From: Solwaraspora sp. WMMA2065
GTDB taxonomy: Bacteria > Actinomycetota > Actinomycetes > Mycobacteriales > Micromonosporaceae
Direction of reading: 5' to 3'
DNA: 64,000 bases
Assembly: GCF_030345075.1 (NCBI RefSeq)
Contig: NZ_CP128361.1
Coordinates: 1-64,000, forward strand
The notes beneath the pieces were generated by a model that was not told the DNA's origin, did no database searches, and saw nothing but the letters and a program-made list of their open reading frames with translations. Below, piece after piece: positions 1-27,886 of the stretch. Numbering within the stretch: the stretch's first letter is position 1; each line of letters begins with the position of its first letter. A program made the position numbers and the translations under genes.

Positions 1-243
1 GGGAACATCTGGGGCGAGGCCGGCATCATGCGCGAGATGGCGGCCCGGGGCGCGGCGCTGGTCGCCGAACCCGGCAATCTCGTGGCCCAGCTCGCCAGAG
101 TGCTCGACGAGCCGTCGTTCACCGACGCCGCCACGCAGTTGCGCAAGGAGATGCTCGCCACGCCCAGCCCGCGCGACATCGTGCCCGACGTCGAGGAGAT
201 CGCCGGGGCACGGGCGAAGGGAGACGGCGATGGCCGCCGATGA
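1..243 (+). CDS. Glycosyltransferase, C-terminal fragment (partial at window edge)
   Basis: The reading frame is open from base 1, so only about the last 80 residues of the protein are present. The ending [19 protein letters not shown] resembles the C-terminal helix of macrolide-type glycosyltransferases (EryCIII/DesVII family), which carry nucleotide-activated deoxysugars to polyketide aglycones in the cytoplasm. The catalytic and nucleotide-sugar-binding parts lie outside the window. Its TGA overlaps the start of the first PKS gene by 14 bases, so the two are probably translationally coupled and the PKS product is likely glycosylated. The family call rests on a short tail and on context. 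Confidence 0.72.
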
Positions 244-3200
244 TTCGCGGTTGCTCGACTATCTGCGTCGCGCCACCGCCGAGCTCAAGGAGACGCGTCG
301 GCGGCTGGACGCGGCCGAGCAGCGGGACCGGGAACCGATCGCGATCGTGGGGATGGCGTGCCGGTTCCCCGGTGGGGTGGTCTCGCCGGAGGGGTTGTGG
401 GATCTGGTGGTGGGTGAGGGGGATGCGACTGGTGAGTTTCCGGTGGACCGGGGGTGGGACACGGAGGCGTTGTTCGATCCTCGGCCGGGTCGGGTGGGGC
501 GGTCGTATGTGCGTCGTGGTGGGTTCCTGTATGACGCGGCGGGGTTCGATGCGGGGTTCTTCGGGGTGGGTCCGCGTGAGGCGCGGGAGATGGATCCGCA
601 GCAGCGGTTGTTTCTTGAGGTGTCGTGGGAGGCGTTGCGGCGGGCGGGGGTGGAGCCGGCGTCGTTGGCGGGTAGTCGTACCGGTGTCTACGCCGGGGTG
701 ATGCACCACGACTACCCCGAAAGCAGCGGGCTGGGCAGCGCGGTCTCCGGTCGGGTGGCGTACCACCTGGGTCTGGAGGGGCCGGCGGTCGCGGTGGACA
801 CGGCGTGTTCGTCGTCGTTGGTGGCGTTGCATCTGGCGGTCAACGCGTTGCGTTCGGGTGAGTGCGAGCTGGCCCTGGCCGGCGGGGTGACGGTGATGTC
901 CACCCCGGAGGTCTTCGTCGACTTCAGTCGGCAGCGTGGGTTGGCGCCGGACGGGCGGTGCAAACCGTTCTCCGACGACGCCGACGGCACCGGCTGGGCC
1001 GAGGGGGTCGGCGTCCTCGCCGTCGAACGGCTCTGCGACGCCCAGCGCAACGGTCGACGGATCCTCGCGGTGGTGCGCGGCAGCGCGACCGGTTCGGACG
1101 GTGCCAGCAGCGGGATGTCCGCGCCCAACGGTCCGGCGCAGCAGCGGGTGATCCGGCAGGCGTTGACGGCGGCGGGGTTGTCGACGGTGGACGTCGATGT
1201 GGTGGAGGCGCACGGTACGGGCACCCGGTTGGGGGATCCGATCGAGGCGCAGGCGTTGTTGGCGACGTACGGGCGGGGTCGGGACGCGGATCGTCCGTTG
1301 TGGTTGGGGTCGTTGAAGTCGAACATCGGTCATGCGCAGGCGGCGGCGGGTGTGGGCGGTGTGATCAAGATGGTGATGGCGTTGCGGGCGGGGGTGCTGC
1401 CGCGGTCGTTGCATGTGTCGGAGCCGTCATCGCATGTGGACTGGTCGTCGGGTGGGGTGCGGCTGTTGACCATGGCGCGGCCGTGGCCGGACAGGGGTGG
1501 GCCGCGTCGGGCCGGGGTGTCGTCGTTCGGCTTCAGCGGCACCAACGCCCACGTGATCCTGGAACAGGCGCCCGACAGCCCCGCCGACACCGCTGCGGTG
1601 GCCACCCGCGAGTTCCAGCATGAACGCTTCTGGCGGCTCCCGCTGACCGACACCCTCGCCGCGGCCGGCCTCACCGGCGCCGGACATCCCATGATCGGGG
1701 CACTCGTCGAATCCCCCGACTCCGGCGAGATCCATCTCACCGGCCGCCTCAGCGTCGACGCGCAACCCTGGCTGGCCGACCACGTGGTGCACGGTCGGGT
1801 CCTGGTGCCCGGCACCGCCTTCGTCGAGCTCGCCATCCGGGCCGGTGACCAGGCGGGAACCAGCGGAATCGACGAGCTGATCTGCGAACGTCCGCTGGTG
1901 CTGCCTGAGCACGGCACGGTCGCCGTCCACGTCGTCGTCCGGGCCCTCGACGAGTCCGGCCGGCGCCCCGTCGCGGTGTACTCCCGTACCGACGCGGCCG
2001 ACCAGCCATGGCAGCGCCACGCCAGCGGCCTGCTCGGCGCTGCCAACCTGGCCGCAACCGGGCCGCGGGCTCCGTGGCCGCCGGCCGGCGCCAGCACCGT
2101 GCCCGTCGACGAGCTGTACGACGAACTCGCCGACCTCGGCTACGAGTACGGGCCGGCGTTCCGCGCGACACGTGCCGCGTGGCGTCGTGACGACGAGGTG
2201 TTCGCCGAGGTCGCCGTGCCCGAACACGAGCACACCGACGCGACCCGGTTCGGGATCCACCCCGCCCTGCTCGACAGCGCCCTGCACGCGGCGATAGCCG
2301 GTGAGCGGGGTGCGCCCGGCGACGGCCACGCCTGGCTGCCGTTCGCCTGGACCAACGTCGCGTTGCACACGGCGGGGGCGGCCGCAGCGCAGGCCCGGGT
2401 ACGGCACCTGGCCGACGGTTCCCTGTCCGTCACCCTCACCGCCGCCGACGGCGAACCGGTGCTCACCGTCGGCTCGCTGCTCGCCCGGCCCACGTCGGTC
2501 GACACCGCCGAAGTGGACTCCACGACCGGGGCCCTGTACCGCATCGGCTGGGACCGTCTCACGCTCGACGCCGCGACCGCACCGCCCGCGGTGACCGTCG
2601 GAGGGCCCGCGACCGGACCGGTCGACGCGTCCGGGACGGCGGTGCACGTCACCGACCTGGCGGCGCTGTCGGCCGCACTGGACGACGGTCGACCGGTACC
2701 ACAGGTCGTGCTGCGCTACGCCGATGCGCCGGCGGTGCCCGACGTGCCAGCCGCTGTCCGCGAGCTGATCCACCAGGTGCTCACCGACCTGCGCACCTGG
2801 CTCGCCGACGAGCGGTTCGCCGCCTCCCGGCTCGCGGTCGTGACCCGCGAAGCGGCCATGGTCGAACCGGCAACGGCAACGGCTGCTGCTGCGGCCGCCG
2901 ACACGGACCTGGACATGGTGGCCGCTCCACTCTGGGGCCTGGTCCGGGCCGCCGCCGCCGAACATCCCGGACGGTTCTGCCTGGTCGACGTCGACGACAC
3001 CACGACCATGGCGGAGGTCGCCGCCGCAGCGAGCGCCGGCGAACCCGAGGTGGCGCTGCGCTCCGGTGCGGCGTGGGTACCTCGCCTGCGCCGGGTGGAA
3101 GTGCCCACCGGGCACGGGCGCCAGCCGGCGTTCGGCGCCGGCACCGTCCTGGTCACCGGAGGTACCGGAGGGCTCGGCGCCCTGCTGGCCCGGCACCTGG

Positions 3201-4456
3201 TCACCGAACATGGCGTACGCCGGTTGCTGCTGGCCAGTCGACGCGGACCTGCGGCCGCGGGTGCCCAGCAGCTGCGGGCCGACCTCACCGCGCTCGGCGC
3301 GCAGGTACGGCTGGTCGCCTGTGACACCGCCGATCGGGATGAGCTCGCCACCCTGCTCGCCAGTGTTCCCGACGCGCACCCGCTGAGCGCGGTGGTGCAC
3401 GCCGCCGGAGTCGCCGACGGCGGGCTGATCGTCACCCAACGACCCGACCAGGTCGACGTGGTCCTACGCCCCAAAGTAGATGCCGCGTGGCACCTGCACG
3501 AACTGACCCGTGACCGCGAGCTGGCCGCGTTCGTCCTGTTCTCCTCCGCCGGCGGCCTGGTCCTGCCGGCGGGGCAGAGCGGCTATGCCGCCGCCAACGT
3601 CTTCCTCGACGCCCTCGCCGCCCACCGGCGGGCCACCGGCCTTTCCGCGTTGGCGTTGGCCTGGGGAGCCTGGGCGGGTCCGGCCGGCATGGCGGGCGGC
3701 CTCGACGAGCCGGCCCGCCAACGGCTGGACCGACTCGGGGTGCCCGCGTTGCCAGTGGACCGGGCGCTCGCCCTGTTCGACGCCGCGCTGCGCGGTGCCG
3801 AGCCGTGCCTGGCGCCGCTGCGGATCGATCCGGTCGCGCTGCGCGAGCGGGCAGCCGACGACCTGCCCGCCCTGCTGCGCGGCGTCGCCGGCCCGACCCG
3901 GCGGGTCAGTCGCAGCACGACTCCCGCAGCCGGATCCGGGCCGACGCTACGGCTGCACCACCTGCCGCCCGCGCAACGCGACGAGCAATTGCTCGCTCTG
4001 GTCACCCGGCACGTCGCCACCGCACTCGGGCACGATCGGCCGGACGCGGTGGACCCGCACCGCGCCTTCCAGGACATGGGCTTCGACTCGCTCGCCGCGG
4101 TCGAACTGCGCAACGCCCTGGCGGCGGCGACCGGGCTGTCACTGGCGGCGTCACTGGTCTTCGACCAGCCGACCGCCGTCGCCGTCGCCCGGCACCTGGC
4201 CCAGCAGTTGGAGACGTCCACGGACCCGGTGAAACCACTGCTGGACGAGGTCGACCGGCTGGCGACCACGCTGACGGCGGCCAGCGGGACCGTCAGCGAC
4301 CGGGAGGCGGTCACCGACCGGTTGGAGGCGCTGCTGCGCAGTTGGCGTGCCAGCGGGGCGGCCGGCCAGCCGGCGGCACCGGACCTGGGTACCGCCAGCG
4401 ACGAGGAGCTGTTCGCCGCGCTCGACACCGAGTTCGGCGTGACTGGACGGGGGTGA
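230..4456 (+). CDS. Modular type I PKS, one module: KS-DH-KR-ACP, no AT
   Basis: 1408-residue assembly-line protein. An N-terminal coiled docking segment (about 1-32) leads into KS (about 34-446, Cys193, VEAHGTGT His near 328, NIGH His near 368). The post-AT signature FQHERFW follows the KS by only about 15 residues, so the roughly 300-residue acyltransferase expected here is missing. DH is intact: His518 in [10 protein letters not shown] and the [10 protein letters not shown] motif. KR has TGGTGGLG and Tyr1119, but the LDD motif reads ADG, so its stereotype is unclear. ACP has Ser1287 in GFDSL, and the C-terminus is helical docking sequence. KS and docking types are those of cis-AT systems, so the missing AT is a departure rather than the normal trans-AT layout. 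Expected chemistry, if an AT is supplied from elsewhere: one malonyl extension giving an alkene. Stretches of the KS use TTG/GTG-rich codons unlike the rest of the gene. Confidence 0.93.
1135..1471 (+). repeat. KS segment nearly identical to 10176-10512 (AT-less module copy 1)
   Basis: This stretch of the module 1 KS aligns without gaps to 10176-10512 with about six base differences in 337, counted by eye. Its 3' two thirds are also very similar to 19849-20085. It encodes the region from the catalytic VEAHGTGT motif to near the KS end. The equivalent regions of the AT-bearing modules differ at many third positions. Codon use is shifted towards TTG, TCG and GTG. Confidence 0.85.
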
Positions 4457-4462
4457 GTGACC

Positions 4463-7400
4463 ATGGCGACCGCCGACGAGCTGCGTGACTACCTGCGGCG
4501 CGCCACCAGCGAGCTACAGCAGACCCGACAGCAGTTGCGCGCGGCCGAGGCACGTGACCAGGAACCGATCGCCATCGTGGCGATGGGCTGCCGCTATCCC
4601 GGTGGGGTGCGTTCACCTGAGGGCCTGTGGCGGCTGGTCGCCGACGAGGTGGACGCGATCGGGGAGTTCCCCACGGACCGGGGCTGGGACGTCGAGCAGC
4701 TGTACCACCCGCAGCCGGGTCAGCCGGGTCGCAGCTACGTACGCCACGGCGGGTTCCTCTACGACGCGGCCGAGTTCGACGCGGCGTTCTTCGGCATCAG
4801 CCCTCGGGAAGCGATGCGAGCCGACCCTCAGCGGCGGCTGCTGCTGGAGGTGGCCTGGGAGACGGCGGAGCGGGCCGGCGTCGACCCGACCTCGCTCGCC
4901 GGCACGTCCACCGGCGTCTTCGTCGGAGTGATGTACCACGACTACGCCGGTGGCGGCCCCACCGGCAGCCTCGTGTCCGGTCAGATCGCCTACAACCTGG
5001 GGTTGGAGGGACCGGCGGTCACCGTGGACACCGCCTGCTCGTCCTCGCTGGTCGCGGTGCACCAGGCGATGGGGTCGCTACGCCGGGGCGAGTGCACCCT
5101 CGCGTACGCCGGCGGTGTCACGGTGATGGGCACCCCGGAGCTGTTCGTCGACTTCAGCCGGCAGCGGGCACTCGCGCCGGACGGGCGGTGCAAGTCCTTC
5201 GCCGCCGCGGCCGACGGCGCGGCGTGGTCCGAAGGGGCCGGGTTGCTGCTGCTGGAGCGGTTGTCCGACGCCCGGCGCAACCGGCACCCGGTGCTGGCGG
5301 TGCTGCGTGGCAGCGCGGTCAACTCCGACGGGGCCTCCAACGGCATGTCCGCGCCGAACGGTCCCGCGCAGCAGCGGGTGATCCGCCGGGCGCTGCGTGA
5401 CGCCGGGCTGCGGGAGTCCGACGTCGCCGTGGTCGAAGCCCACGGCACCGGCACCACGCTCGGTGACCCGATCGAGGCGCAGGCCCTGCTCGCCACCTAC
5501 GGCCAGCACCGCGAACAACCGTTGTGGCTCGGCTCCATCAAGTCCAACCTCGGGCATCCTCAGGCGGCCGCCGGGGTGGCCGGGATCATCAAGATGGTAC
5601 AGGCGATGCGGCACTCGATGCTGCCGCGGACCCTGCACGTCGACCGCCCGACCCCGCAGGTGGACTGGTCGGCCGGCAACGTCGAACTGCTCACCGAGGC
5701 CCGCAAGTGGCCGGTGAACGGCCAACCGCGTCGGGCAGGCGTGTCGTCGTTCGGCTTCGGCGGCACCAACGCCCACCTGATCATCGAGGAAGCACCGTCG
5801 GCGTCACCAGCGGCACCGCCGAGCACCGCCGGCCCGCTGCTGCCCCTGGTCCTGTCCGCCCGGACCGCCGCCGCGCTGCGCAGCCAGGCCCGGCGGCTGC
5901 TGCCGGTGGTCGCTGGCGACGAAGCGCTGTCCGACATCTGCGGCACGCTCGCCACCGGTCGCGCCGCCCTGCCACACCGGGCGGTGGTGCTCGCCGCCGA
6001 CCGGGCGGCGGCGGTCGACGGGCTGACCGCTGTGGCCCGCGCGTCAACGGCGGCCTCGGTGGCCACCGGGTCCGCCGCGCCGGGCAAGCTCGCGTTCGTC
6101 TGTACCGGCCAGGGCGCGCAGCGGCTGGCGATGGGGCGCGAGTTGGCCGCCGCCTACCCGCCCTTCGCGCAGGCATGGGACGACGTCTGCGACCGGCTGG
6201 ACACCCAGCTGCCCCGGCCGCTGCGTCAGGTCGTCGACGGCGGCGACGAGCAGGCGCTCAACCAGACGGTGTACGCCCAGGCCGGGCTCTTCGCCGTCGA
6301 GGTGGCGCTGATCCGGCTGCTCGCCGCCTGGGGGATCCGGCCCCAACTGCTGGCCGGCCACTCCGTCGGCGAGATCAGCGCGGCGTACACCGCCGGGGTC
6401 CTCTCCCTCGACGACGCGTGCCGGCTGGTGGTCACCCGGGGAACGCTGATGCAGAAGCTGCCTGCCGGTGGCGCGATGGCGGTGGTCCAGGCGCCGGAAT
6501 CCGAGGTGACCCCGCTGCTCACCGGCGGGGCGGCGATCGCCGCGGTGAACACCCCCGACTCGGCGGTCGTGTCCGGCCCACGCGAGGCGGTGACCGCCGT
6601 GACCGAGCGGCTCGCCGCCGACGGCCGGCAGGTCATCTGGCTGCGGGTGTCGCACGCGTTCCATTCGCCGTTGATGGACCCGGTGCTCGACGAGTTCCAG
6701 GCCGCCGTGGCCACTCTCGACCTCCGTCCGCCCCAACTGCCGGTCGTGTCCACCGCCACCGGTCGGCCGGCGTCGGCACAGCTGGCGACCGCGCAGTACT
6801 GGGCGAGTCAGATCCGTCAGCCGGTGCGGTTCGCCGACGCCGTGACCGCGCTGCGTGAGCTGGGCGCGACCACCTTCGTCGAGATCGGGCCGGACGCGGC
6901 GCTGACCGGTCCGATGCGCGGCTGCCTGGGCGCCAGTCCTGACGTCCGGGTGGTGCCGCTGCTGCGCCGGGGCCGGCCCGAGCCGGAAACCCTGCAGCGG
7001 GCCGTGGCCGAACTGCACGTGCGGGGCATCACCCCGGACTGGTCGGCGGTGCTGGGGGGTACGCCGGAGCCGGTCGAACTGCCGACGTATCCGTTCGAAC
7101 GGCAACGTTTCTGGTGGGTGCCGGCCCCGTACACGCCGCAGACGGAGCCACCGGCAGGGCCGGCGGCCGGGAAACAGTCGACGGACACCGCACCGACGGC
7201 CGGCACCGCACAGCCGGCCGACGCCGCACAGCCGGGCGGCAGCGGGGATCAGCCGACCCCGGTCGACTCCTGGCGCTACCGGGTGCGCTGGCAGCCGGTG
7301 GCGGACCCGCCGGGCCGGCTCGACCCGCCCGGACCGGGTCAGGAGAACTGGCTGGTCGCCGTACCGGCCGGGTATCCCTGGTCCGACGCGCTCGTCGCCG

Positions 7401-9220
7401 AACTCGCCACCGACGGCGTCAGAGTCCGTACCGTCGAGGTCGGTGACGGTGACCGGGAGAGCCTGGCCGCACGGCTCACCACACTCGCCGCCGCCGCCCC
7501 GCCGCACGGCGTGCTCAGCCTGCTCGCGTCGCACAACGACCCCGATCCGGCACACCCCACCCTGACCGGTGGCAGCCGGGGAACCGTCCTGCTCTGCCAG
7601 GCACTGGCCGACGCCGGGATCGAGGCACGCCTGTGGTGTGTCACCCGTCAGGCGGTAGCGGTGGACCGGTTCGACCTCCCGGCCGACCCGCACCAGGCGG
7701 CGATCTGGGGTCTGGGTGTCGGACTGGCGATCGACCAGCCGGACACCTGGGGCGGTCTGATCGACCTGCCCGCCCAGCCCGACCGGGAAGCGGTCGCCCG
7801 GTGCGTGGCGGTGCTGCGGGCCGGCGGCCCGGAGGATCAGCTCGCGATCCGGCCGGCGGCCACCTTCGCCCGTCGGATGGTGCGTGCCGGGCGTGACCCC
7901 GGCACCGCCGAATGGCGACCACGCGGCACGGTCCTGGTCACCGGCGGCACCGGGGGCGTCGGCCGGCACGTGGCACGGTGGCTCGCCGAGCACGGCGCCG
8001 AGCACCTGGTGTTGACCAGTCGGCGTGGACCGGAGGCGGCCGGCGCTGCGGACCTGGCCGCCGAGATCCGCGCACTCGGCGTCGAGGTGAGCATCGTGGC
8101 CTGCGACGTCACCGACCGGGCGGCACTGCGGCGGCTGCTCGACGGGCTGCCGGCCGTACCGCCGCTGACCGCGGTGGTCCACGCGGCCGGCACGCTGCAC
8201 GGGCAGCGGCCGCTCACCCAGCTCACCGTCGCCGATTTCGCCGCCGCCGGAGCGGCGAAGATCTCCGGCGCGGTGCATCTGGACGAGCTGACCGCACACC
8301 TGCCGCTGGACGCCTTCGTGCTGTTCACCTCCGGCGCGGCGATCTGGGGCAGCGCCCAACAGCCCGGGTACGCCGCCGCGAACGCCTTCCTCGACGCGTT
8401 CGCGGTACGCCGCAGGGCTGCCGGTAGACCGGCCACTGCCATCGCCTGGGGGCCCTGGGCCGGTGGCGGCATGGTGGACGAGACGGCCAGCGCCCATCTG
8501 CGGCAACTCGGCATCCGTGAGCTCGACCCACGGTTGGCCGCCGGTCGGCTCGTCGAAGCCGGCGGGGAGGAGGCCGCACTGGTGGTGGCCGACGTCGACT
8601 GGGCGAGGTTCGGACCGATCCACACGCTTGCCCGGCCCCGACCGCTGGTCGCCGGACTGCTGCCGCCGACCGCCGGATTGGGGCAGCCGGTCGACCCGGC
8701 CGAGGCCGGCACGCTCGTGGTCCAGCTCGCCGGACTCGACGACGGCGACCAGTTGCAGGTCCTGTCGAATCTGGTACGGGCACAGGCAGCCGCGGTCCTC
8801 GGCCACGGCGACGCCACCGACGTCGCCCCTGGCACCAACTTCAAGGACCTCGGCTTCGACTCGGTCAGCGCCGTCGACTTCCGCGACCGGCTCGGCGTGG
8901 CCGCCGGCCTGCGGCTGCCGGCGACCGTCGTGTTCGACCACGCGACCCCGGCGGCGCTGGCCAGCTACCTGCGTGACGAACTGTGCGGACCGGGTTCCGA
9001 GGCGGAGCCGGTGCTGGCCACGCTGGACCGGCTGGAAGCCCTGGCCGGACCCCTCACACCGGACGAGATCGCGCGCACCCGCATCACCGGCAGGCTGCAG
9101 TCGCTGGTGAGCAGATTGACCGAAGTCGTCGACGGACCCGCCGTCACCACGGTCGTTGATCGGCTCGCGGAAGCGAGTGCCGATGACGTCTTCGACTTCA
9201 TCGACAAGGAGCTGGGCTGA
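4463..9220 (+). CDS. Modular type I PKS, one module: KS-AT-KR-ACP (malonyl, A-type KR)
   Basis: About 1585 residues with a docking coil, then KS with Cys194 (in numbering from a GTG at 4457). AT has Ser636 in GHSVGE and HAFH at 733-736; HAFH is the established signature for malonyl-CoA selection. The post-AT linker ends [10 protein letters not shown]. There is no DH. KR has TGGTGGVG, Tyr1305 and Trp eight residues before it ([10 protein letters not shown]), with no LDD motif; this pattern is typical of A-type reductases giving an L-configured hydroxyl. ACP has Ser1469 in GFDSV. The C-terminal docking tail ends [15 protein letters not shown] 4463 has a GGGGGTGAG Shine-Dalgarno sequence; GTG 4457 is the alternative. 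It follows the previous stop at once. Expected product step: addition of an acetate unit left as a secondary alcohol. Confidence 0.95.
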
Positions 9221-15200: not shown

Positions 15201-18200
15201 GGTCGCCGCCCGGGGCACCCTGATGCAGGCGCTGCCGGCCGGCGGTGCGATGCTCGCCGTGCAGGCCAGCGAGGACGAGGTACGCCCGCTGCTGACCGGC
15301 CGGCTGGACCTCGCCGCCGTCAACGCGGCGCAGTCGGTGGTGCTCTCCGGTGCCGAGCAGGAGATCCGGGCCGTCGCCGAAAGGTTCGCCGGGCAGGGCA
15401 GGGCGGTGACCCGGCTGCGCGTGTCGCACGCGTTCCACTCGGCGGCGATGGAGCCGATGCTGGCCGCGTACCGCGAGGTGGTCGAGTCGGTCACCTTCCG
15501 GCCGCCCAGGGTGCCGCTGGTCTCCACGCTCACCGGCGCGGCGGCGGACCCGGAGCAGTTGTGCTCGGCGGAGTACTGGGTACGGCAGGTGCGCGAGCCG
15601 GTGCGGTTCCACGACGCGGTCCGCTGCCTCGAACGCGCCGGCGTCACCCGGTTCGTCGAGGTCGGGCCGGACGCCGTGCTCGTCCCGCTGGTGTCGCGCG
15701 GCGTCGCCGCGACGGCCACGCCGCCGACGGTCGCGCCGACGATGCGTCGGGGCCGCGACGAGCCGCGCACGTTGCTGGACACGCTCGCCCGGCTGCACGT
15801 GTGCGGCGTCGCGGTGGACTGGTCGGCGGTCCTCGCCGACCTTCCGGTGCGCCGGGTACCCCTGCCCACCTACGCCTTCCAACGCCAGAGGTACTGGCTG
15901 GACAGTGTCGCGGGTGCCCTCGCTGACCCGTCTGCCGGTGCTCATCCGCTCGTCGACCGGACGGTAGAACTGCCCGGCTCGGGTGGGTTGATGCTGACCG
16001 GCCGGTTGTCCGCCGCGACCCACCCCTGGCTGGCCGACCACGTGGTACACGGACTGACCGTGCTGCCCGGCGCCGGCCTCGTCGAACTCGCCACCCGGGC
16101 CGGCGACCAGCTCGGCTGCGGGCGGATCGAACAGCTCGACTTCGAACGTCCGCTGGTCCTGCCGGCCGGCGACAGCGTCGCCGTGCAGGTGGAGGTCGGT
16201 GCCGCCGACGAACGTGGGGCACGGCGTGTCCTGGTGCACTCCCGGGCCGGATCCGCCGGAACCGACCCGCCCTGGCAGCGGCACGCCAGTGGGGTGCTGG
16301 TGCCGGACACCCCGGCCGCCGACCGGCTGGCACCAGACCCGGAGTTCACCCAGTGGCCGCCGCCGGGAGCCACCCCGGTGTCGCTGGACGGCTGGTACGA
16401 CGAGCTCGCCGCGACCGCCGGAATCGCCTACGGCCCGGTCTTCCGCGGGGTGCGCGCGGTGTGGCGGCGGGCCGACGAGGTGTACGCCGACGTCGCCCTG
16501 CCGGCCGTGGCCGGCACTGACGCCGCCGACTTCAACCTGCACCCGGCGTTGCTGGACGCGGCCTGGCAGTTGGTGGCGCACAGCCCGGTGGCGGCGGCCG
16601 GCCCGCTGCTGCCGTTCGCGGTGACCGGGGTGAGCCTGTTCGCCACCGGCGCCGTCGAGGCGCGGGTGCGCGTACGGGTCGCCGCGCCGGCGACGGTGTC
16701 GGTCGAGATCGTCGACGGCGCCGGTGAACCGGTCGCCACCGTCGACGCGCTCGCGCTGCGCCCCGCCGGTGACCTGGCGCAGGACCTCGACGACGTGGAG
16801 GTGTCCGCCGGTGACGGGTCAGCGGCCAGCCGCGACGGCGGAGGTCCGGGCGACGGGCCAGCGGCGGCGCTGCTGCGGGTCCAGTGGCAGCCGATCGCCG
16901 CACCCGACGTGTCGCCGAGCGTCGCCTGGCAGCTGGTCGGCCCGGACCGCTGGACGCTGGCGGCGCCGCTCACCGCGACCGCCGTACCGGACTTCGACGC
17001 CGTCGTCGCGTCGGCGGCCGACGGCGACGGCGAGGACCGGCCGGTGTTCCTGCTCAGCTGTGGCGGCGGCCCGGACCCGGACGTCGTGCACGGCGAGACC
17101 CGGCGGGCGGTCGACGCGTTGCGTACCTGGCTGGCCGACAGCCGGTTCGACGGGTCGAGGCTGGTGGTGGTGACCGGCGGCGGCGTCCCGGCCGGTGCCG
17201 TCGCCGACGTGGACCCGGCCGGTGCCGCCGTCTGGGGCCTGGTACGCAGCGCGCAGGCCGAGCACCCCGATCGGATCGTGCTGGTCGACGTCGAGCCGGA
17301 CCGGGTCTCGCCCGCGCTGCTGGCCTCGGCGGTGTCCACGGGGGAGCCCCAGGTGGCGGTCCGCGACGAAGCCCTGTACGTGCCCCGCCTGGTGCCGAGC
17401 GGTCCGCCGCCGCAGGACGCGCCCCCCACGCCCCCGGACTTCGGCTCGGGCACGGTCCTGGTGACCGGGGCGACCGGCGCCCTCGGCCGGGTGATCGCCC
17501 GGCACCTGGTGACCGGTCACGGCGTACGGCATCTGCTGCTGACCAGCCGGCGGGGCATGGCCGCGCCCGACATGACGCGGCTGCGTACCGACCTGCTCGA
17601 CCTCGGCGCCCAGGTGACGGTCACGGCCTGCGACGTCACCGACCGCGACGAGGTGGCACGGTTGCTCGCCACGGTGCCGTCGGAGCATCCGCTCACCGGC
17701 GTCGTGCACGCGGCCGGCGTTCTCGACGACGCGGTGATCGGCTCGCTGACCGCCGACCGGATGTCGAACGTGCTGCGGCCCAAGGTGGACGCCGCGTGGC
17801 ACCTGCACGAGCTGACCAGGGACACGCCGCTCGCCGCGTTCGTGACGTTCTCCTCCGCCGCCGGGGTCCTCGGCCCACCCGGTCAGGCCAACTACGCCGC
17901 GGCCAACGCCTACCTGGACGGGTTGGCCGCCCACCGGCGGGCGCACGACCTGCCGGCCAAGTCACTGGCCTGGGGCCTGTGGTCCACTGCCGACGAGGGG
18001 ATGGGTGGCGCACTGACCGAAGCCGACCTGCGGCGGCTCGCCGAGACCGGTGTCCACCCGCTCGACGCCGAGACCGGTCTCGCCCTGTACGACCGGGCGG
18101 TGGCCCTGCCCGACGCCGTGCTGGTGCCGATCCGGCTCGATCCGGCGAAGCTGGGGCCGGACCGGCCGGCGTTGCTCGACGGCCTGGCCGCGCCCCCGCC

Positions 18201-18795
18201 GACGGACGATGGCGCGACCGGGACGCGTCGGCGCTCCGCGCGGGACGCGAACGGCGGCGCGCCGACCGGTGGTGGCGGCGGCCGGCTCCGCGAGCAGCTC
18301 GCCGGCAAGTCCCGCCCGCAGGCGCAGGAACTGCTGCTGGAGATGATCCGCAGTGAGGCGGCGAAGCTGCTCGGGCACCCGGGGCCGGAGGCGATCGAGC
18401 CGGAGCGGGCCTTCAGCGAGCTGGGCTTCGATTCGTTGGCCGCGATCGGGTTCCGTAACCGGTTGACCCTGCTCACCGGCCGGCAGCAGCCGGCGACGTT
18501 GATCTTCGACTATCCCAACGCCGCCGCGCTGGCCCGGCAGTTCGCCGCCGACCTCGTGCCGGACACCGTCGACGGCGGCGCTGCGCTGCCCGACGACGAG
18601 ATCCGGGCGGTGCTGAGCAGCATCCCGCTGGGCCGGCTGCGTGCCGCCGGACTGCTGGAGAGCCTGCTCGCGCTGGCCGGCGCGCCGACGCACCCGGCCG
18701 GCACGCCCCACCCGGCGGGCGGCTCCGCGATTGACGAAATGGACACCGAGAACCTCATCAGCATGGCCCTGCAGACGGCCGACTTCGGCGAGTGA
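9220..18795 (+). CDS. Modular type I PKS, two modules: KS-DH-KR-ACP (no AT), then KS-AT-DH-KR-ACP
   Basis: 3191 residues; the ATG shares its A with the previous TGA. Module 3: docking coil, KS (Cys210, ending near 459), about 20 linker residues, post-AT signature FHRKRYWL (about 484), DH (His542 in HRVHGEVILP; HPAVLDAATQ), KR (TGGPGSLG, Tyr1122, VAD in place of LDD) and ACP (Ser1285). The AT is absent. Module 4: KS (Cys1504), malonyl-type AT (Ser1973 in GHSIGE, HAFH at 2070), DH (His2274 in [20 protein letters not shown]), B1-type KR (LDD present, Tyr2892) and ACP (Ser3072). The end, IDEMDTENLISMALQ, is a C-terminal docking helix that should dock on the next gene's [13 protein letters not shown] start. 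Each module should add an acetate unit processed to an alkene, provided module 3 receives malonyl from another AT. Confidence 0.95.
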   Translation: MATMDDDGKLLQYLKRVTAELHQTRRRLHEVESADRDPIAIVAMSCRYPGGVTSPEELWRLVVDEVDAIGPFPTDRGWTTGPLPTGDEDGPADGHVREGGFLADPAGFDAELFEMSPREALATDPQQRIMLELAWETFERAGLAPDSLDGAQVGVFVGSGAQDYYDDLSAAATEAVSAYFSTGNAASVISSRISYAFGLAGPALTIDTACSSSLVALHVAAQALRQRECSMALAGGVMVMATPGPFVAFSKQRGLASDGRCKPFSDDADGTGWAEGAGVLLLERLSDAQRNGHPVLAVIRGSAVNQDGASNGLTAPNGLAQQRVIRQALTAAGLSTVDVDVVEAHGTGTRLGDPIEAQALLATYGRGRDADRPLWLGSLKSNIGHAQAAAGVGGVIKMVMALRAGVLPRSLHVSEPSSHVDWSSGGVRLLTRARPWPGTDEPRRAGVSSFGVSGTNAHLILEQAEPAGESGTGDTDLPQPTRRFHRKRYWLDDRAPAGDLATVGLDPADHPLLAAVTVVADTQGAVLTGRLSTATHPWLAEHRVHGEVILPGTAFVELAVRAADQLGCAHIAELTLHAPMRLPAHGGVRIQVVVGEPDQAGARRISIHSRAEQAVAARSWTSHATGHLTTAPIPSGADQPEAEPSWPPAGAEPVPIDTLDDTLAGAGLDYGPAFRGLRAVWRQGVRLWADVRLPDPGDADRFGLHPAVLDAATQALAVDLGDGQGHARLPFSWSGVTLHATGAAELRVRFTPTSPDTYAVAAFDHAGHLVATATAVTFRPLAAVAAAPARTADLHRLDWVPIADPGRDRPAEGVHLLRLDEVCGDDPDTIREHCRQLLATLQHWLGDATNNGTRLAVVTRGAVPVAGTGGDLAGAAVWGLVRSAQAEHPDRFLLVDADPVDRTDPSGVSGVAATGDTPADADTPADADTVAAAVAAALAAGEPQVAVRGGTAHAARLAHLPAAGNARPVLDPAGTVLITGGPGSLGAIVARHLVDRYAVRHLVLLSRQGDQTPGAAALVAELAELGARARVVACDVADRAALARVLTETTARRPLTAVVHAAGVVADGVVTAMTPHRLDAVLAPKVAGALHLHELTAGMDLAAFVMFSSLSGVLGAPGQANYAAANSVLDALAARRHRAGLPAVSVAWGQWDTDGGMTGTLAEADRARMARGGVLPLSVPAGLALFDAAVAATAPAVVAAALQPARLRAGDGVPPVFSSLVGPLTRPAAGGGTGALAARLAELAERERADLLLDLVRTHVATVLGHESPEAVAADREFHQLGFDSLTAVELRNALTAATGLRLPATLVFDHPTANAVAEYLRAELVVGESRPGGALAVASSAGTDEPIAIVAMACRYPGGVSSPEQLWTLVADGVDAIGEFPADRGWQIDQLYDASGERPGSTYVRTGGFLYDAADFDAGFFGISPREAPTVDPQQRLLLETSWEAVERAGIDPLSLRGSATGVFVGVQYHDYVASSSTGAVVSGRVAHHFGFEGPAVSVDTACSSSLVSMHWAAQSLRTGECTLALAGGVTVMATPETFVEFSRQRGLARDGRCKAFSTDADGTAWAEGAGVLVLERLSDARRHGHPVLAVIRGSAVNSDGRSNGLTAPNGPAQQRVIRQALANAGLRPGDVDVVEAHGTGTALGDPIEAQALLATYGQDRDEPLWLGSLKSNIGHTQAAAGVAGVIKMVQAMRYATMPRTLHVTEPSTHVDWAAGKVRLLTTDRPWRRTGQPRRAAVSSFGVSGTNAHLVIEEADPQDAAVTAGGDGGSAAGSESGGGADGGADGGAGEPPVVPWLLSGRTRQALQAQAERLLNHVDDTDDEAADIGYSTVFRPQLEHRAVLLGAERGDFLLGLVALVDGVEEAESVTGTVSSGGLAFVFSGQGAQHPRMGRQLAARFPVFAAALHEVTSEFDTRLDPPLGTVLAAEPGSAEAALLDQTAYTQAGVFAVEVAMLRLLESVGVRPDRLAGHSIGELAAAYAAGMLSLSDACALVAARGTLMQALPAGGAMLAVQASEDEVRPLLTGRLDLAAVNAAQSVVLSGAEQEIRAVAERFAGQGRAVTRLRVSHAFHSAAMEPMLAAYREVVESVTFRPPRVPLVSTLTGAAADPEQLCSAEYWVRQVREPVRFHDAVRCLERAGVTRFVEVGPDAVLVPLVSRGVAATATPPTVAPTMRRGRDEPRTLLDTLARLHVCGVAVDWSAVLADLPVRRVPLPTYAFQRQRYWLDSVAGALADPSAGAHPLVDRTVELPGSGGLMLTGRLSAATHPWLADHVVHGLTVLPGAGLVELATRAGDQLGCGRIEQLDFERPLVLPAGDSVAVQVEVGAADERGARRVLVHSRAGSAGTDPPWQRHASGVLVPDTPAADRLAPDPEFTQWPPPGATPVSLDGWYDELAATAGIAYGPVFRGVRAVWRRADEVYADVALPAVAGTDAADFNLHPALLDAAWQLVAHSPVAAAGPLLPFAVTGVSLFATGAVEARVRVRVAAPATVSVEIVDGAGEPVATVDALALRPAGDLAQDLDDVEVSAGDGSAASRDGGGPGDGPAAALLRVQWQPIAAPDVSPSVAWQLVGPDRWTLAAPLTATAVPDFDAVVASAADGDGEDRPVFLLSCGGGPDPDVVHGETRRAVDALRTWLADSRFDGSRLVVVTGGGVPAGAVADVDPAGAAVWGLVRSAQAEHPDRIVLVDVEPDRVSPALLASAVSTGEPQVAVRDEALYVPRLVPSGPPPQDAPPTPPDFGSGTVLVTGATGALGRVIARHLVTGHGVRHLLLTSRRGMAAPDMTRLRTDLLDLGAQVTVTACDVTDRDEVARLLATVPSEHPLTGVVHAAGVLDDAVIGSLTADRMSNVLRPKVDAAWHLHELTRDTPLAAFVTFSSAAGVLGPPGQANYAAANAYLDGLAAHRRAHDLPAKSLAWGLWSTADEGMGGALTEADLRRLAETGVHPLDAETGLALYDRAVALPDAVLVPIRLDPAKLGPDRPALLDGLAAPPPTDDGATGTRRRSARDANGGAPTGGGGGRLREQLAGKSRPQAQELLLEMIRSEAAKLLGHPGPEAIEPERAFSELGFDSLAAIGFRNRLTLLTGRQQPATLIFDYPNAAALARQFAADLVPDTVDGGAALPDDEIRAVLSSIPLGRLRAAGLLESLLALAGAPTHPAGTPHPAGGSAIDEMDTENLISMALQTADFGE
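10176..10512 (+). repeat. KS segment nearly identical to 1135-1471 (AT-less module copy 2)
   Basis: This is the module 3 copy of the KS segment at offset 9041 from the module 1 copy, with about six substitutions and no gaps. It lies just upstream of the point where the AT is missing. A tract this similar between modules whose other KS parts diverge points to recent gene conversion or duplication. Confidence 0.85.
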
Positions 18796-18816
18796 CGCGA
18801 GAGGTGTGAGATAGAC

Positions 18817-21800
18817 ATGACGCAGGCGGACCAGAGGATCGTCGACGCTCTCCGCGCGTCGCTGAAGGAGAACGAGCGACTCCGCGAGCACAGCCGCCAG
18901 CTCACCGAGGCAGCACACGAGCCGATCGCCATCATCGGCATGGCGTGCCGGTTCCCCGGTGGGGTGACCAGTCCGGAAGGGCTGTGGCGGCTGCTGGTCG
19001 ACGAGGTCGATCCGATGGGTGGGTTCCCCACCGACCGGGGCTGGGACCTGGACCGGCTCTACGACCCCGACGGCACCCGGCCCAACACGACCTACGTACG
19101 GCAGGCCGGGTTCCTCTACGACGCGGGCGACTTCGACGCCGACTGGTTCGGCATCGCCCCCCGCGACGCCCTGCTGATCGACCCCCAGCAGCGGTTGCTG
19201 CTGGAAAGCACCTGGGAGGCGTTCGAACGCGCCGGTATCGCCCCGGCGTCGGTACGCGGCAGCCAGACCGGCGTCTTCGCCGGGGTCATGTACCACAACT
19301 ATCCCGGCAGTTACGGGTCGTCGGGGGTGGTGTCCGGGCGGGTCTCGTACCACTTCGGTTTCGAAGGACCGGCGATCACGCTCGACACCGCCTGCTCGTC
19401 GTCCCTGGTGGCGCTCGACCTCGCTGTACAGTCGCTGCGTCGGGGGGAGTGCTCCCTCGCTGTCGCCGGCGGGTCGTCGGTGATGGCCTCCCCGCAGACC
19501 TTCGTCGAGTTCAACCTCGAGGACACCCAGTCGCGTGACGGCCGGTGCCGTTCCTTCTCCGACGACGCCGACGGGCCGGCCTGGGCCGAGGGCGTCGGGG
19601 TGCTGCTCGTCGAGCGGCTGTCCGATGCGCGCCGCAACGGCCACCGCGTTCTCGCCGTGGTACGCGGCTCCGCGGCCAACTCCGACGGCGCGTCGAACGG
19701 GCTGACCGCGCCGAACGGTCCGGCTCAGCAGCGGCTGATCCGGCAGGCGTTGGCCAACGCCCGCATGTCCGCCGACCAGGTCGACGCGGTCGACGGCCAC
19801 GGTACGGCCACCGAACTGGGCGACCCGATCGAGGTGCAGGCGCTGCTGGCGACGTACGGGCAGGGTCGGGACGCGGATCGTCCGTTGTGGTTGGGGTCGT
19901 TGAAGTCGAACATCGGTCACGCGCAGGCGGCGGCGGGTGTGGGTGGTGTGATCAAGATGGTGATGGCGTTGCGGGCGGGGTTGCTGCCCCGGTCGTTGCA
20001 CGTGTCGGAGCCCTCGTCGCATGTGGACTGGTCGGCGGGTGGGGTGCGGCTGTTGACCATGGCGCGGCCGTGGCCGGGTACCGACGGACCGCGTCGGGCC
20101 GGGGTGTCGTCGTTCGGGTTGAGCGGGACGAACGCGCACGTGATCCTGGAGGAGGCGCCGGCGGATCTGGCGGCCGGCCCGGTGCCGGCCGACGGCTCGG
20201 TCGAGGATCCACCGGCTGTGCCGTTCCAGCGCAAGCGCTACTGGCTGACCGCCTCCCCGCTGACCGGTGACCCGGTCTCGATGGGGCTCGCCCCCGCCAA
20301 CCACCCGCTGCTCGGCGCCGCCGTCATGCTCGCGGCCAACGACGGCATGGTGCTCACCGGGCGGCTGTCGGTGGCGAACCAGCCCTGGCTGGCCGACCAC
20401 CGGGTGGGCGAGACCGTCCTGTTCCCCGGCGCGGGCTTCGTCGAACTCGCCACACACGCCGGGGAACGGGTCGGCTGCGGCCGGATCGCCGACCTCGTCC
20501 TGCAGGCCCCGCTGGTGCTGCCGGCCCGGGACGCGCAGCAGATCCAGATCACGCTCGGCGGGCCCGACGACTCCGGAGCCCGGTCGCTGGTCGTGCACAG
20601 CAGGACCGACGACGGTACGGACGACAGCCGTTGGACGCCGCACGCGACCGGCACCCTGGTGCCGCGTCGGCCGCCCACCGGTGCCGAGCTGACCTCCTGG
20701 CCGCCGGACGGCGCCGAGCCGGTCGACCTGGCCGGCGTCTACGACGAGTTCGCCGAACGTGGACTGGTCTACGGACCGACCTTCCAGGGGCTGCGGAACG
20801 CCTGGCGCCGCGACGACGACCTGTACGCCGAGATCAGCGTGCCGGATCAGGCACGGGGCAAGGTGAACCGGTTCGGGCTGCACCCGGCACTACTGGACGC
20901 GGCCCTGCAGGCGGTCGGCCGCAGCGGGTTGGCCGGGCAGGAGGCGGCCCTGCCGTTCCAGTGGCGCGACGTCGAGGTGTACGCCGCCGGCGCGGCCAGC
21001 GCCCGGATCCGGGTCAGCCGCTCGGCCGACGGCGGCGTGTCGATCCTGCTGGCCGACGGCACGGGTACGCCGGTCGCCTCGGTCGGTTCGCTGGTGCTGC
21101 GCCCGGTCGTGGCGGCGGAACTGGCCGCCGCCGACAGTGGGCCGTACCGCGACGCGCTGTTCACCGTCGACTGGACGCCGGTGGCGCTGCCGGCCGGTGC
21201 CCCGGTCACCGTCGCCGACCTGGCCGGCGTGACCGCCGGCGCCGAGGTCCCGGCGGTGGTGCTGCACCGTCACGCCGCCGTGTCCGGCGCCGGCGCCGGT
21301 ACGCCCGAAGCGGTCCGCGCCGGCACCGTGGAGGCGTTCACCGCGCTGCGTACCTGGCTGGCCGAGCCCCGGTTCGCCGGCACCCGGCTGGTGGTGCTGA
21401 CCCGGCGGGCCGTGGCGCTGCCCGGCGAGGACGTCACCGACCTGGCCGGCTCAGCCGTGTGGGGGCTGATCCGGTCCGCGCAGACCGAGCATCCGGGTCG
21501 GATCGTGCTGGTGGACACCGACGCCGAACAGGACGCGGTGACGCTGCTGCCGAAGGTGCTGGCGGCCGGGGAGTCCCAGGTCGTGGTCCGGGACGGGGCG
21601 GTACGGGTGGCCCGGCTGCGCAGAGCGGACGCGGCTGCGGCCGACGCGGTACCGGCCGACGTCGCCGCCGGCACGGTGCTGGTCACCGGGGCCACCGGTG
21701 GCCTCGGCCGGCTGATCGCCCGGCACCTGGTCACCACGCACGGCGTACGGGACCTGCTGCTGGTCAGCCGGCGCGGTGCGGCCGCCGAAGGCGCCGACGA

Positions 21801-24249
21801 ACTCGTCGAGGAGCTGACCGGGCTGGGCGCCCAGGTCGAGCTGGTCGCCGGCGACGTCGCCGACCGGGACGCGGCAGCGGCGCTTGTCGCCGGACGCCGG
21901 CTCACTGCGGTCGTGCACGCCGCCGGGGTGCTGGACAACGGCACGATCGACACGCTGACGCCGCAGCGGATCGACGCCGTGCTGCGGCCGAAGGTCGACG
22001 CCGCGTGGCACCTGCACGAGCTGACCGCCGGGATGGACCTGGCCGCGTTCGTGCTGTTCTCCTCCGCCTCCGGCGTGCTCGGCGGGATGGGGCAGGGCAA
22101 CTACGCCGCCGCGAACACCTTCCTGGACGGGCTGGCCGCCCATCGGCGGGCCAGCGGCCTGGCCGGGGTCTCCCTCGCCTGGGGCATGTGGGGCACCGGC
22201 ACCGGGATGGCCGGTCACGTCACCGCCGCCGAACTGCCGCAGGTGGCCCGTACCGGGTTCGTCCCGATCAGCGGCGCGGAAGGGCTGGCGCTGTTCGACG
22301 CCACCTGGATGTCGCCGGAACCGTTCCTCGCCCCCATCCGGCTCGACCTCACGGTCCTTCGCCGGCAGGGGGACGCGCTGCCGGATCTGTTCCGGGCCCT
22401 CGTCCCAGCGCCGCGCCGCGCCGTCGCCGCCCCCGGCGACGCCACCGGCACGTTCAGTCAACGGTTGGCCGCGATGTCGGTCCAGGACCGGGGGAACACC
22501 CTGCGGGAGCTGGTTCGCGCGCAGGTGGCGCAGGCGCTCGGGCACAGTGCCCCGGAGAGCATCGAGCTGGACCGGGCGTTCCAGGACCTGGGATTCGACT
22601 CCCTCACCGCGGTCGAGCTGCGCAACGGGCTCAGTGTCGCCACCGGGGTCCAGCTGTCGGCGACCCTGGTGTTCGACAACCCGACCCCGATGGCGTTGGT
22701 CGACCACCTCGCCGAGGAACTCGTCGGTGACGCGGAGGAACCGTCCGTGGCAGAGCCCGACCAGGCCCCGGTGTCGGCGGACGAACCGATCGCCATCGTC
22801 GGCATGAGCTGCCGACTGCCCGGCGCGGTCAGCTCGCCCGAGGACCTGTGGCGGCTGCTGACCGCCGGCGACGACGGGATCTCGTCGTTCCCCACCGATC
22901 GGGGCTGGGACATCGAAGGATGGTTCAGCCACGACTCCGGCGCGGGTTCCCGCCAGGGCGGGTTCGTCGCCGACGCCACCCACTTCGACGCCGGCTTCTT
23001 CGGCATCAGTGACGACGAGGCGACCGTCATGGACCCGCAGCAGCGGCTGCTGCTGGAGGCTTCGTGGGAGGCGATCGAGCGGGCCGGCATCGATCCGCGT
23101 TCGCTGCGCGGCAGCACCACCGGTGTGTTCGCCGGAGTGATGCAGCCCGACTACGACCCCGGCATGTTCGGATCGGTGGAACACGCCGCCGCGTTCCGTG
23201 GGGTCGGCCTGTCGCAGAGCATCGTCTCCGGCCGGGTGGCCTACCTGCTGGGCCTGGAGGGCCCGGCGGTGTCGGTGGACACCGCCTGCTCGTCCTCCCT
23301 GGTCGCGCTGCACTGGGCTATCCAGGCGCTGCGCCAGGGTGACTGTTCGCTGGCGCTCGCCGGCGGGGTGACGGTGATCTCGACCCCGGCCACCTTCGTC
23401 GACTTCGACCAGCAGGGCGGGCTGGCCACCGACGGGCGCTGCAAGTCGTTCTCGGCGGCGGCCGACGGGATCGGCTGGGCCGAGGGCGTCGGTGTGCTCG
23501 TGGTGGAGCGGCTCTCCGACGCCCGACGCAACGGCCACCAGGTGCTGGCCGTGGTACGGGGCTCCGCCGTCAACTCCGACGGTGCCTCCAACGGGATGAC
23601 CGCGCCCAACGGGCCGGCCCAGGAGAAGGTGATCCGGCGGGCGCTGGCGACCGCCGGGCTACGCGCGGACGAGGTCGACGCGGTCGAGGGCTTCGGCGCC
23701 GGCACCCGGCTCGGCGATCCGATCGAGGTGCGGGCCCTGCAGGGCACGTACGGGCAGGACCGCGACCGGCCGCTGTGGCTGGGATCGGTCAAGTCGAACA
23801 TCGGCCACACCCAGTCGGCCTCCGGCGTCGCCGGGGTCGTCAAGATGGTGCTCGCCCTGCGGCACGGCGTGCTGCCGCGGACGCTGCACGCCGACGACCG
23901 GTCCCCACACGTGAACTGGGCCGACAGCCAGGTGCGGCTGCTCACCGAGTCGGTGCCCTGGCCGGCGGGCGAGCGTCCGCGCCGGGCCGCGGTGTCGTCC
24001 TTCGGGCGCAGCGGCACCAACGCGCACCTGATCCTGGAGGAGGCGGACCCCGCCGTGGCCGGGGCGCAGGCGCACGGTCAGCCGCCCCAACAGGCGCAGC
24101 GGCCGGCCGGGCCGATGCTGCCGCTGCTGGTGTCGGCGCGAACCCGGGAGGCGTTGCCGGACCAGGCTGCCGCGCTGGTCGCAGCGCTGCGTGCCGACCC
24201 CGACCTCGACCCGGTCGACGTCGGGTACTCCTACGGCGTGGATCGGTAG
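18817..24249 (+). CDS. Modular type I PKS: KS-DH-KR-ACP (no AT), then a truncated KS module
   Basis: 1810 residues with an ATG behind GAGAGG. The docking coil leads to module 5: KS (Cys193), about 23 linker residues, post-AT signature FQRKRYWL (about 470), DH, KR (TGATGGLG, Tyr1096, LDN) and ACP (Ser1262). The AT is absent. The DH reads [10 protein letters not shown] from His528: the His-to-Pro spacing is kept, but the conserved Gly is one residue early and its place is taken by Glu, so activity is doubtful. Module 6 begins at about 1323. Its KS keeps Cys1491 and NIGH, but the VEAHGTGT motif reads VEGFGAGT with Phe1626 in place of the catalytic His. The protein ends in the KS-AT linker (VGYSYGVDR) because the frame enters sequence of an opposing MFS gene and meets TAG. 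No AT, ACP or thioesterase follows, so the gene is 3'-truncated. Confidence 0.93.
19849..20085 (+). repeat. KS segment shared with modules 1 and 3 (AT-less module copy 3)
   Basis: The module 5 KS from GACGTACGGG to the GTACCGAC motif matches 1262-1498 and the corresponding part of module 3 with only a handful of differences by eye. It has the same TTG-rich codon style, whereas the KS sequence before it is diverged. Modules 2, 4 and 6 lack this version. Confidence 0.75.
24232..24249. other. Junction between truncated PKS gene and truncated MFS gene
   Basis: PKS-like protein sequence on the + strand is recognisable up to VGYSY (base 24234). MFS-like protein sequence on the - strand is recognisable from base 25038 down to QVALPIH (base 24238). 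Both proteins therefore lose their C-terminal parts at the same place, within a few bases. This is what a deletion, an inversion endpoint or an assembly join between two unrelated loci would leave. No transposon end or direct repeat was recognised at the joint. Confidence 0.8.
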
Positions 24250-26482: not shown

Positions 26483-27886
26483 ATGTCGCTGACCGGCGGG
26501 CGGGTGCACCGCGTCTACAGCGTCGTCGTGTTCATCGTGCTCGCCTCGCTGGACAACGTGGCGATCGGCCTGGTCCCGCCGCTGTACGGCAGCATCGCCG
26601 ACACGTACGCCGTACCGGAGGGGGCGATCGGCGCGGTCACCGCCGCGACGTTCCTGGTCAGCGCGATCGCCGCGGTCGGCTGGGCGTACGTCGGCGACCA
26701 CGGCGACCGTAAACCGCTGCTGATGGCCGGTACGGTGATCTGGGGGCTCGGCGCGGCCGGTACCGCCCTCGCCGGCAGCTACCCGGTGTTCTTCGCCGCG
26801 CAGCTCGTCGCCGCCGTCGGCCTCGGCGCGGTCGCCTCGGTCGGCTTCTCCGTGGTCAGCGACCTGATCACCCCCGGCCGGCGGGGCCTGGTGATGAGTT
26901 TCTGGGGGCTGTCGCAGGGCGTCGGCACGCTGGCCGGCACCCTGCTCGGCGGGCTGCTCGGGCACGCCGACTGGCGGCGGCCGTTCCTGGTGCTCGCCGC
27001 CGCCGGGCTGGTCGCCACGGTCGCGTACCTGTTCACCGTCGACGTGCGGCGCGGGCAGAGCCAGCCGGAGCTGGCCGGCCGGTTCGCCGCCGGTGGTGAG
27101 TACGAGCACCGGATCAGCCGGGCCGACCTGCCGACGATCGCCCGGCGGCGGACCAACGTCTGGCTGGTGGCGCAAGGGCTCACCGCCCAGGTGGCGTTCG
27201 GCTCGCTGGTCTGGCTGCCGGCGCTGTTCCGGGCCCGCGCCGAGGAGCAGGGCTACACCGCCGGTACGGCGATCATCGTCGGCAGCGTCTTCGCCACGTT
27301 GTTCCAACTCGGCGGCGCGCTGTCGATCGTCGGTGGGCTGGTCGGCGACCGGCTGCAACGGCGTACCCCCCGGGGTCGGGCCCTGGTCGCGGCGGTCGGC
27401 ATCCTCGCCGCGGTGCCGTTCTACCTGGTGTTGTTCTTCGTCCCGATGCGCATCGACGTGCCGGACGGCGCGGGTGCCGGTGCGGTGACCGCCGCCGTGC
27501 TGGGCGGGGTGTTCACCGAGCCGACGATCGGGCTGAGCTTCCTCACCGCGCTGCTCGCCCTGGCGTTGACGTCGGCGAACTCGCCGAACTGGTTCGCGTT
27601 GATCGCCGACGTCAACCCGCCGGAGCACCGGGGCACCGTCTACAGCCTCGGCAACCTGGTCAACGGGGTGGGGCGGGCGACCGGCAACGCGTTGCTGCCG
27701 GTCGCCCTGCGGGCCGTCGGCGGTGTCGTCCCGCCGCCGTTGAACTACGCCGTCGGCCTGGCCGTGTTCCAGCTGTTCTTCATCCCGACCGGGATCATGT
27801 ACTGGCTGGCGTCCCGGTCGGCGCCGGGCGACATCGCCGACGTGCACACCCTGCTCAGCGAACGCGCTGCCGGGCCCAGACGGTGA
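26483..27886 (+). CDS. MFS transporter
   Basis: 467-residue membrane protein with about 12 hydrophobic segments and the loop motif GDHGDRKPLL between helices 2 and 3, as in major facilitator exporters. A central hydrophilic loop (about 190-225) separates two six-helix halves. The substrate cannot be told from sequence. The gene is monocistronic and its 3' end overlaps the convergent alpha-glucosidase gene by 32 bases, so no terminator fits between them. Start ATG 26483; no strong Shine-Dalgarno sequence precedes it. Confidence 0.88.
   Translation: MSLTGGRVHRVYSVVVFIVLASLDNVAIGLVPPLYGSIADTYAVPEGAIGAVTAATFLVSAIAAVGWAYVGDHGDRKPLLMAGTVIWGLGAAGTALAGSYPVFFAAQLVAAVGLGAVASVGFSVVSDLITPGRRGLVMSFWGLSQGVGTLAGTLLGGLLGHADWRRPFLVLAAAGLVATVAYLFTVDVRRGQSQPELAGRFAAGGEYEHRISRADLPTIARRRTNVWLVAQGLTAQVAFGSLVWLPALFRARAEEQGYTAGTAIIVGSVFATLFQLGGALSIVGGLVGDRLQRRTPRGRALVAAVGILAAVPFYLVLFFVPMRIDVPDGAGAGAVTAAVLGGVFTEPTIGLSFLTALLALALTSANSPNWFALIADVNPPEHRGTVYSLGNLVNGVGRATGNALLPVALRAVGGVVPPPLNYAVGLAVFQLFFIPTGIMYWLASRSAPGDIADVHTLLSERAAGPRR

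Follow-up and report, generated by a model that had tools for sequence, protein, structure and literature searches.

Five of eleven modules lack an acyltransferase in a probable vicenistatin-type macrolactam polyketide synthase of Solwaraspora sp. WMMA2065

Polyketide synthases (PKSs) with modules that lack an acyltransferase (AT) are known in several forms. In trans-AT PKSs (e.g. leinamycin, bacillaene and phthoxazolin), the AT-less modules need loading in trans, and passages of PMC11907408 describe trans-AT modules as keeping a KS-AT linker subdomain with LINKS helices. Haliamide is made by a line that has both AT-bearing and AT-less modules, for which a section of PMC6274090 proposes as donor a standalone malonate-type acyltransferase found in the genome, and a catalogue of 8799 lines, as excerpted from PMC10394414, holds 122 PKSs and 351 PKS-NRPS hybrids with both kinds of module. 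A cis-AT module without a working AT has also been obtained by engineering, in AT-null DEBS, where the malonyl-CoA:ACP transacylase of S. coelicolor restores module 6, a case of FabD-type loading in trans (passages of PMC6164871). For algal PKSs, displacement of ATs from cis-AT ancestors has been proposed, and the same account reports independent evolution of bacterial cis-AT and trans-AT synthases as the reading; these PKSs differ from the one described here in being eukaryotic and in that nearly all of their noniterative lines are AT-less (PMC4661987, in part). Macrolactam PKSs of the vicenistatin, ciromicin and sceliphrolactam type share with the present locus a starter cassette, a loading ACP, EryCIII-like glycosyltransferases and a terminal TE, and the macrolactam type with a beta-amino-acid starter, as found here, is described in sections of PMC10662134. 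Eleven extension modules, as many as here, are reported for weddellamycin, and the accounts of sceliphrolactam and weddellamycin, as excerpted, mention ATs across the modules and none as missing, whereas in the present line five of eleven modules have no AT.

The stretch of DNA that was analysed, hereafter the window, comprises the first 64,000 bases of a single contig of 6,743,220 bases and begins with four PKS genes on the plus strand. According to Pfam and a domain map, gene A (230..4456, 1408 aa) encodes one module with the order docking-KS-(no AT)-DH-KR-ACP, and gene C (9220..18795) encodes two, C1 being KS-(no AT)-DH-KR-ACP and C2 KS-AT-DH-KR-ACP. Gene B (4457..9220) is KS-AT-KR-ACP by Pfam, and gene D in its window form (18817..24249) comprises D1, again KS-(no AT)-DH-KR-ACP, and the KS of D2, being cut at 24231/24232. 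Acyl_transf_1 (Pfam) was found in B (6095..7033) and once in C, in C2 (14857..15813), both domains lying on the plus strand and carrying a malonyl-type HAFH motif, and was absent from A, C1 and the window form of D. The distance from NAHxxxE to the post-AT motif is 16 residues in A, 21 in C1 and 24 in D1, compared with 435-472 in the six AT-bearing modules of the cluster. The corresponding linkers, of which that of A replaces the KS-AT linker domain as well as the AT, occupy 1565..1612, 10606..10668 and 20152..20223 on the plus strand, their frames are open, and the three differ in sequence. A preliminary description of the window, in which A, B, C1, C2 and D1 were modules 1 to 5, had reported the loss of the AT from modules 1, 3 and 5 with linkers of 15-23 residues, the retention of a malonyl-type AT in modules 2 and 4, open frames and differing linkers, all of which the present analysis bears out apart from the slightly different linker lengths.

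The window gives only part of the cluster. Its positions 1-24231 correspond to contig positions 6618753-6642983, and positions 24232-51531 to the contig end (6715921-6743220), both at 100% identity, and since both stretches are identical to the contig end, the contig start (1..51531) can be read as a redundant overlap from which 72,937 bases are missing internally. At 24231..24232 PKS sequence (contig position 6642983) is fused to position 6715921, with 72,937 bases skipped and no sequence common to the two sides discernible by eye. An untrimmed circular overlap with a chimeric join is the plainest reading of this contig start, a true deletion in part of the culture being conceivable instead. 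The ORF at 18817-24249 stops 18 bases beyond the join, its end at 24249 being a product of that join, and the intact copy of gene D, at contig positions 6637569-6646388, continues into AT, DH, ACP and TE; the window is a partial and redundant view of the full PKS cluster. Once the overlap is removed, the circular chromosome would be ~6,691,689 bases long. Gene counts from the assembly are inflated at the redundant 51.5 kb contig start. Among 10 ORFs scanned between window positions 26483 and 62187, nine gave a match, all to ordinary genes (MFS transporter, alpha-amylase, LacI regulator, parts of a sugar ABC transporter, sigma-70 factor, DAHP synthase, M16 peptidase and ROK regulator), and no tRNA was found within the window.

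At the contig end the full cluster has 11 PKS modules, six with an AT and five (A, C1, D1, E3 and F2, all KS-DH-KR-ACP) without. A loading ACP stands at the start of E and a TE at the end of D, and from biosynthetic logic we infer the gene order E (loading ACP, modules 1-3), F (4, 5), A (6), B (7), C (8, 9) and D (10, 11, TE), along which the AT status gene by gene is + + -, + -, -, +, - + and - +. The alternation of AT-bearing and AT-less modules, which had seemed a feature of the line, holds inside the window; strict alternation is rejected for the full line (+ + - + - - + - + - +), which opens with two consecutive AT-bearing modules and has two consecutive AT-less ones mid-line. All five AT-less modules have lost both the AT and the KS-AT linker domain, and their linkers of 16-24 residues are of four kinds, E3 and F2 having the same one. 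The AT-less modules keep KS Cys/His, KR Tyr and ACP Ser, and the DH HxxxGxxxxP motif is intact in four of the five and altered in D1, whose KS also has HGTAT in place of HGTGT. DH motifs are altered in D2 and in the AT-bearing E2 as well, and the final module, D2, is in addition without a KR, so the line may in part have degenerated.

The interval between D and E holds genes for a VinJ-like hydrolase, a VinK-family acyltransferase, two AMP-ligases, a decarboxylase, a B12-binding mutase subunit and a P450, and upstream there are three EryCIII-like glycosyltransferases and deoxysugar-type genes. Judged by Pfam family and gene order, on which the assignments of Vin proteins rest, the starter cassette is matched throughout (VinK, VinN/VinM-type ligases, VinO-type decarboxylase and VinJ-type hydrolase), and, of the glutamate mutase expected for the 3-amino-2-methylpropionate route, a B12-binding subunit is matched in Pfam. 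The cluster is probably a vicenistatin-type beta-amino-acid macrolactam PKS, with a macrolactam as its predicted product. By the chemistry of such lines, the ring would be 26-membered if all 11 modules are active, and smaller if the degenerate last module does not extend the chain. The preliminary description could name no described system with this pattern, a statement that gives way before the kinship to vicenistatin and before the mixed AT-bearing and AT-less lines catalogued in the excerpt of PMC10394414. In six other species of the same genus a search gave no VinK match, which is why the cluster may have been acquired horizontally.

Against PDB entries, the KS of module A, the sole KS so compared, scored 538 bits with DEBS and at most 270 bits with any single trans-AT-type KS (7zm9 270, 6mhk 268, 4na1 266, 4zdn 266); the 514.5 bits of the second-ranked entry, 7zma, are a total summed over two KS (267 + 246). 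We take 7zma and 6mhk to be trans-AT entries. By these scores the module A KS is of cis-AT type, as had been judged earlier from the style of the KS sequences, and not nearer to trans-AT than to cis-AT KS. Like a trans-AT PKS, the line has AT-less modules (five of 11) in need of trans loading; unlike one, it has a cis-AT-type KS, keeps an AT in six modules, and retains no KS-AT linker subdomain, with only 16-24 residues between KS and post-AT motif. It also differs in that no dedicated discrete malonyl AT, which trans-AT PKSs usually have in the cluster, was found, either among the cluster genes, where a VinK-type protein is the only discrete one recognised, or among Acyl_transf_1 hits of the genome besides FabD.

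A search of 354 genomes of the family, with the best nine candidates scored per genome and AT-less modules with other linkers liable to be missed, found the AT-less junction at E <= 1e-50 in two, the present genome and G316, which belongs to another genus. In G316 the six PKS genes recur in an identical order; 10 of the 11 modules carry an AT, and the only one without stands in place of A. For seven of the 11 modules of our line (D2 being a tie) the best G316 ACP match is the same-place module, which is not so for A. In a tree of 90 KS, built without a trans-AT reference (the PDB bit scores served for the cis/trans comparison) and weakly supported at several nodes, including those around C1 (0.14 and 0.68), our E1, D1 and D2 are sisters of the same-place G316 KS (support 0.50, 1.0 and 1.0); the other eight of 11 are not, in part because six G316 KS are homogenised. 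Gene F of G316 is split over two overlapping frames (L107-L108, G316:C1:1497649-1508702), by a frameshift or a sequencing error. Several AT regions in the PKS genes of G316 (L107-L112) have identical or near-identical scores and a Gly/Val-rich coding (GGVGGLG runs) that recalls the GRINS repeats described in part of PMC10394414.

VinK occurs at 42 places in 40 of the 354 family genomes, and eight of these places were read: our own, that of G316 and six, of 115-120 kb each, picked by hand from single-contig genomes. Around the six other VinK genes, which do not count as independent because G039, G013 and G050 lie close to one another, as do G290 and G158, 64 of 64 KS are followed by an AT and none is AT-less, which argues that AT loss is derived in our line and that of G316. 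In 78 named loci, picked by similarity to the query, 202 KS had a domain after them, and a single one of these was AT-less, in Nocardiopsis sinuspersici (L083). In a class-wide sample, 14 of 394 genomes matched at E <= 1e-50 (our own, 11 of genus g85 and two of another family), where the best seven candidates per genome were scored and AT-less modules with other linkers can be missed. Genus g85 is taken as Nocardiopsis because one of its genomes, G742, matches L083 at 100%. The junction of this separate AT-less module was present in 34 of 40 g85 genomes at E <= 1e-60, and the three loci mapped (L083, G574 and G618; stretches L083:1486-9771, L171-L174 and L178-L181) place it behind a loading module within one protein, KS-AT-ACP-KS-(no AT)-DH-KR-ACP; its retention in so many genomes indicates that AT-less modules inside cis-AT lines can be stable. 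The G574 line starts with a KSQ-type KS, has an ER ahead of the KR (by eye), and bears YASH (methylmalonyl-type) motifs in its three ATs. A further family has an AT-less module at G549:C68:221062-228447 (L176), where the loading module is also without an AT recognised by the script and the sequence stretches read contain 18 N. Among open-licence PMC papers we found no description of such a pattern, whether for macrolactam lines or for Nocardiopsis.

How the ATs were lost can be approached from the sequence beside the gaps. Over the last 95-107 KS residues the five AT-less modules are 92-100% identical in pairwise DNA comparison (mean 95.6), whereas AT-less and AT-bearing modules share 64-75% and AT-bearing ones 70-78% among themselves; in module A this tract covers 107 residues (1244..1564, plus strand, left edge approximate). 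The mean identity of the five ranks first among the 462 possible groupings of five modules, compared with rank 184 of 462 for the first 200 KS residues, and suggests conversion among the AT-less modules. When D1 is compared with the other modules of the line and with the AT-bearing D1 of G316, most of its earlier KS windows and two DH windows are closest to the latter, so D1 is a mosaic with a converted KS end beside the missing AT. Since the linkers are of four kinds, the breaks on the right-hand side could have arisen independently, or from a single event followed by divergence. Because G316 homogenises its KS domains too, AT-bearing ones included, conversion is ordinary and a common KS end is in itself no mark of AT loss. 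Our A and that of G316 are taken as equivalent from gene order; a clear alignment of their linkers was not obtained, and for none of the KS, DH, KR and ACP of our A is G316 A the closest match, so A may have lost its AT either once, before the two lines split, or twice. AT-lessness may have arisen first at module A and later been gained at four more positions, with KS-end gene conversion between modules helping its spread.

Our main reading, held tentatively and with a little less than even confidence, is that the AT-less modules are maintained and active, that their ACPs would be charged with malonyl units in trans, with the housekeeping malonyl-CoA:ACP transacylase FabD as the leading candidate for the loader, and that AT-lessness spread from module A. 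The genome has 13 distinct AT domains (15 Acyl_transf_1 hits, two of them duplicated by the contig overlap), and the only hit in a frame of <600 aa is FabD, which by eye stands beside fabH-, acpP- and fabF-like frames, i.e. in the fab operon. The free-standing AT elsewhere, one of two loaders suggested earlier, has its candidate in this enzyme, the only discrete Acyl_transf_1 protein in the genome search. Six further genomes with AT-less modules likewise gave one such hit each, in a frame of 343-405 aa, G574 having in addition a frame of 661 aa, the first part of a PKS gene split between frames; diverged discrete ATs could be missed, as the VinK homologue itself escapes the PF00698 search. The six ATs retained in the cluster carry HAFH (five) or RAFH (D2), motifs that we read as malonyl-type, in which case a single malonyl donor would suffice. 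The Nocardiopsis-type line, by virtue of its three YASH-bearing ATs in G574, offers a clean test of the loader.

The main rival to loading by FabD, in our judgement somewhat unlikely, is that retained ATs in the same protein or a docked neighbour load the AT-less ACPs. Every protein but A keeps at least one AT, and in L083, G574 and G618 a KS-AT-ACP loading module precedes the AT-less one within a single protein, both of which speak for such sharing. Yet A is a separate protein without an AT, the KS-AT linker domain that would seat one is gone, and the placement does not stand out from chance, since 92 of the 462 possible placements have no more than one AT-less module in any protein and 206 have an AT in every multi-module protein. 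Sharing inferred from placement was rejected, there being no signal across all 462, and the regular line with 'one AT per two modules' proposed earlier does not survive six ATs for 11 modules in so unremarkable an arrangement (92/462).

That the AT-less modules are decaying and no longer extend the chain, being skipped or part of a dead line with a shorter or absent product, we consider improbable. Five modules without an AT, and a last module without a KR and with an altered DH motif, would fit such decay, and non-functional modules have been proposed in the related macrotermycin line (sections of PMC10662134). Against it are the open frames and active-site residues, the occurrence of an AT-less module at a position common to two genera, and the separate one that 34 of 40 genomes in another genus retain. 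Moreover, dN is below dS in all 43 computable domain comparisons between our line and G316 (two of 45 were saturated), with no obvious difference, by eye, in dN/dS between AT-less and AT-bearing modules; as dS is high and the method simple, this argues only against free decay. The line is real and unusual, and its modules are apparently maintained, in agreement with what was first proposed for them.

An assembly artefact, in which ATs collapsed out of repetitive PKS sequence, is brought to mind by the chimeric join within the same gene set at the contig start, and is very improbable given five in-frame junctions with four kinds of linker, all in the contig-end copy without that join, and an independent genome with one AT-less module at the same place. 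It is scarcely credible that the VinK homologue of the cluster also serves to load malonyl units. Among those cluster genes that were scanned it alone was recognised as a discrete AT-like protein, and it has a GPSFG motif, but it matches a VinK-specific family rather than Acyl_transf_1, and its presence is explained by the starter unit, as VinK homologues also stand beside lines without an AT-less module.

With six AT-bearing and five AT-less modules, the line is a previously unreported variant within a known class that mixes both kinds. In contrast to haliamide and the catalogued mixed lines, the search for a discrete loader yielded only FabD, which lies in the fab operon, and two matching clusters allow a line with one AT-less module to be set beside a line with five. 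These two clusters provide possible intermediate steps, and may together be a snapshot of a line moving from built-in to shared loading. The natural junctions show where an AT can be absent, and they adjoin the EEAP site used in the laboratory to decouple KS and AT (passages of PMC11907408). We regard as rather unlikely the further reading that a change from built-in to shared loading is under way at present with no trans-AT gene acquired, FabD taking over while conversion of a KS-end cassette spreads AT-lessness; if it is true, the trans-AT condition would arise with neither the KS lineage nor the linker domain of trans-AT systems.
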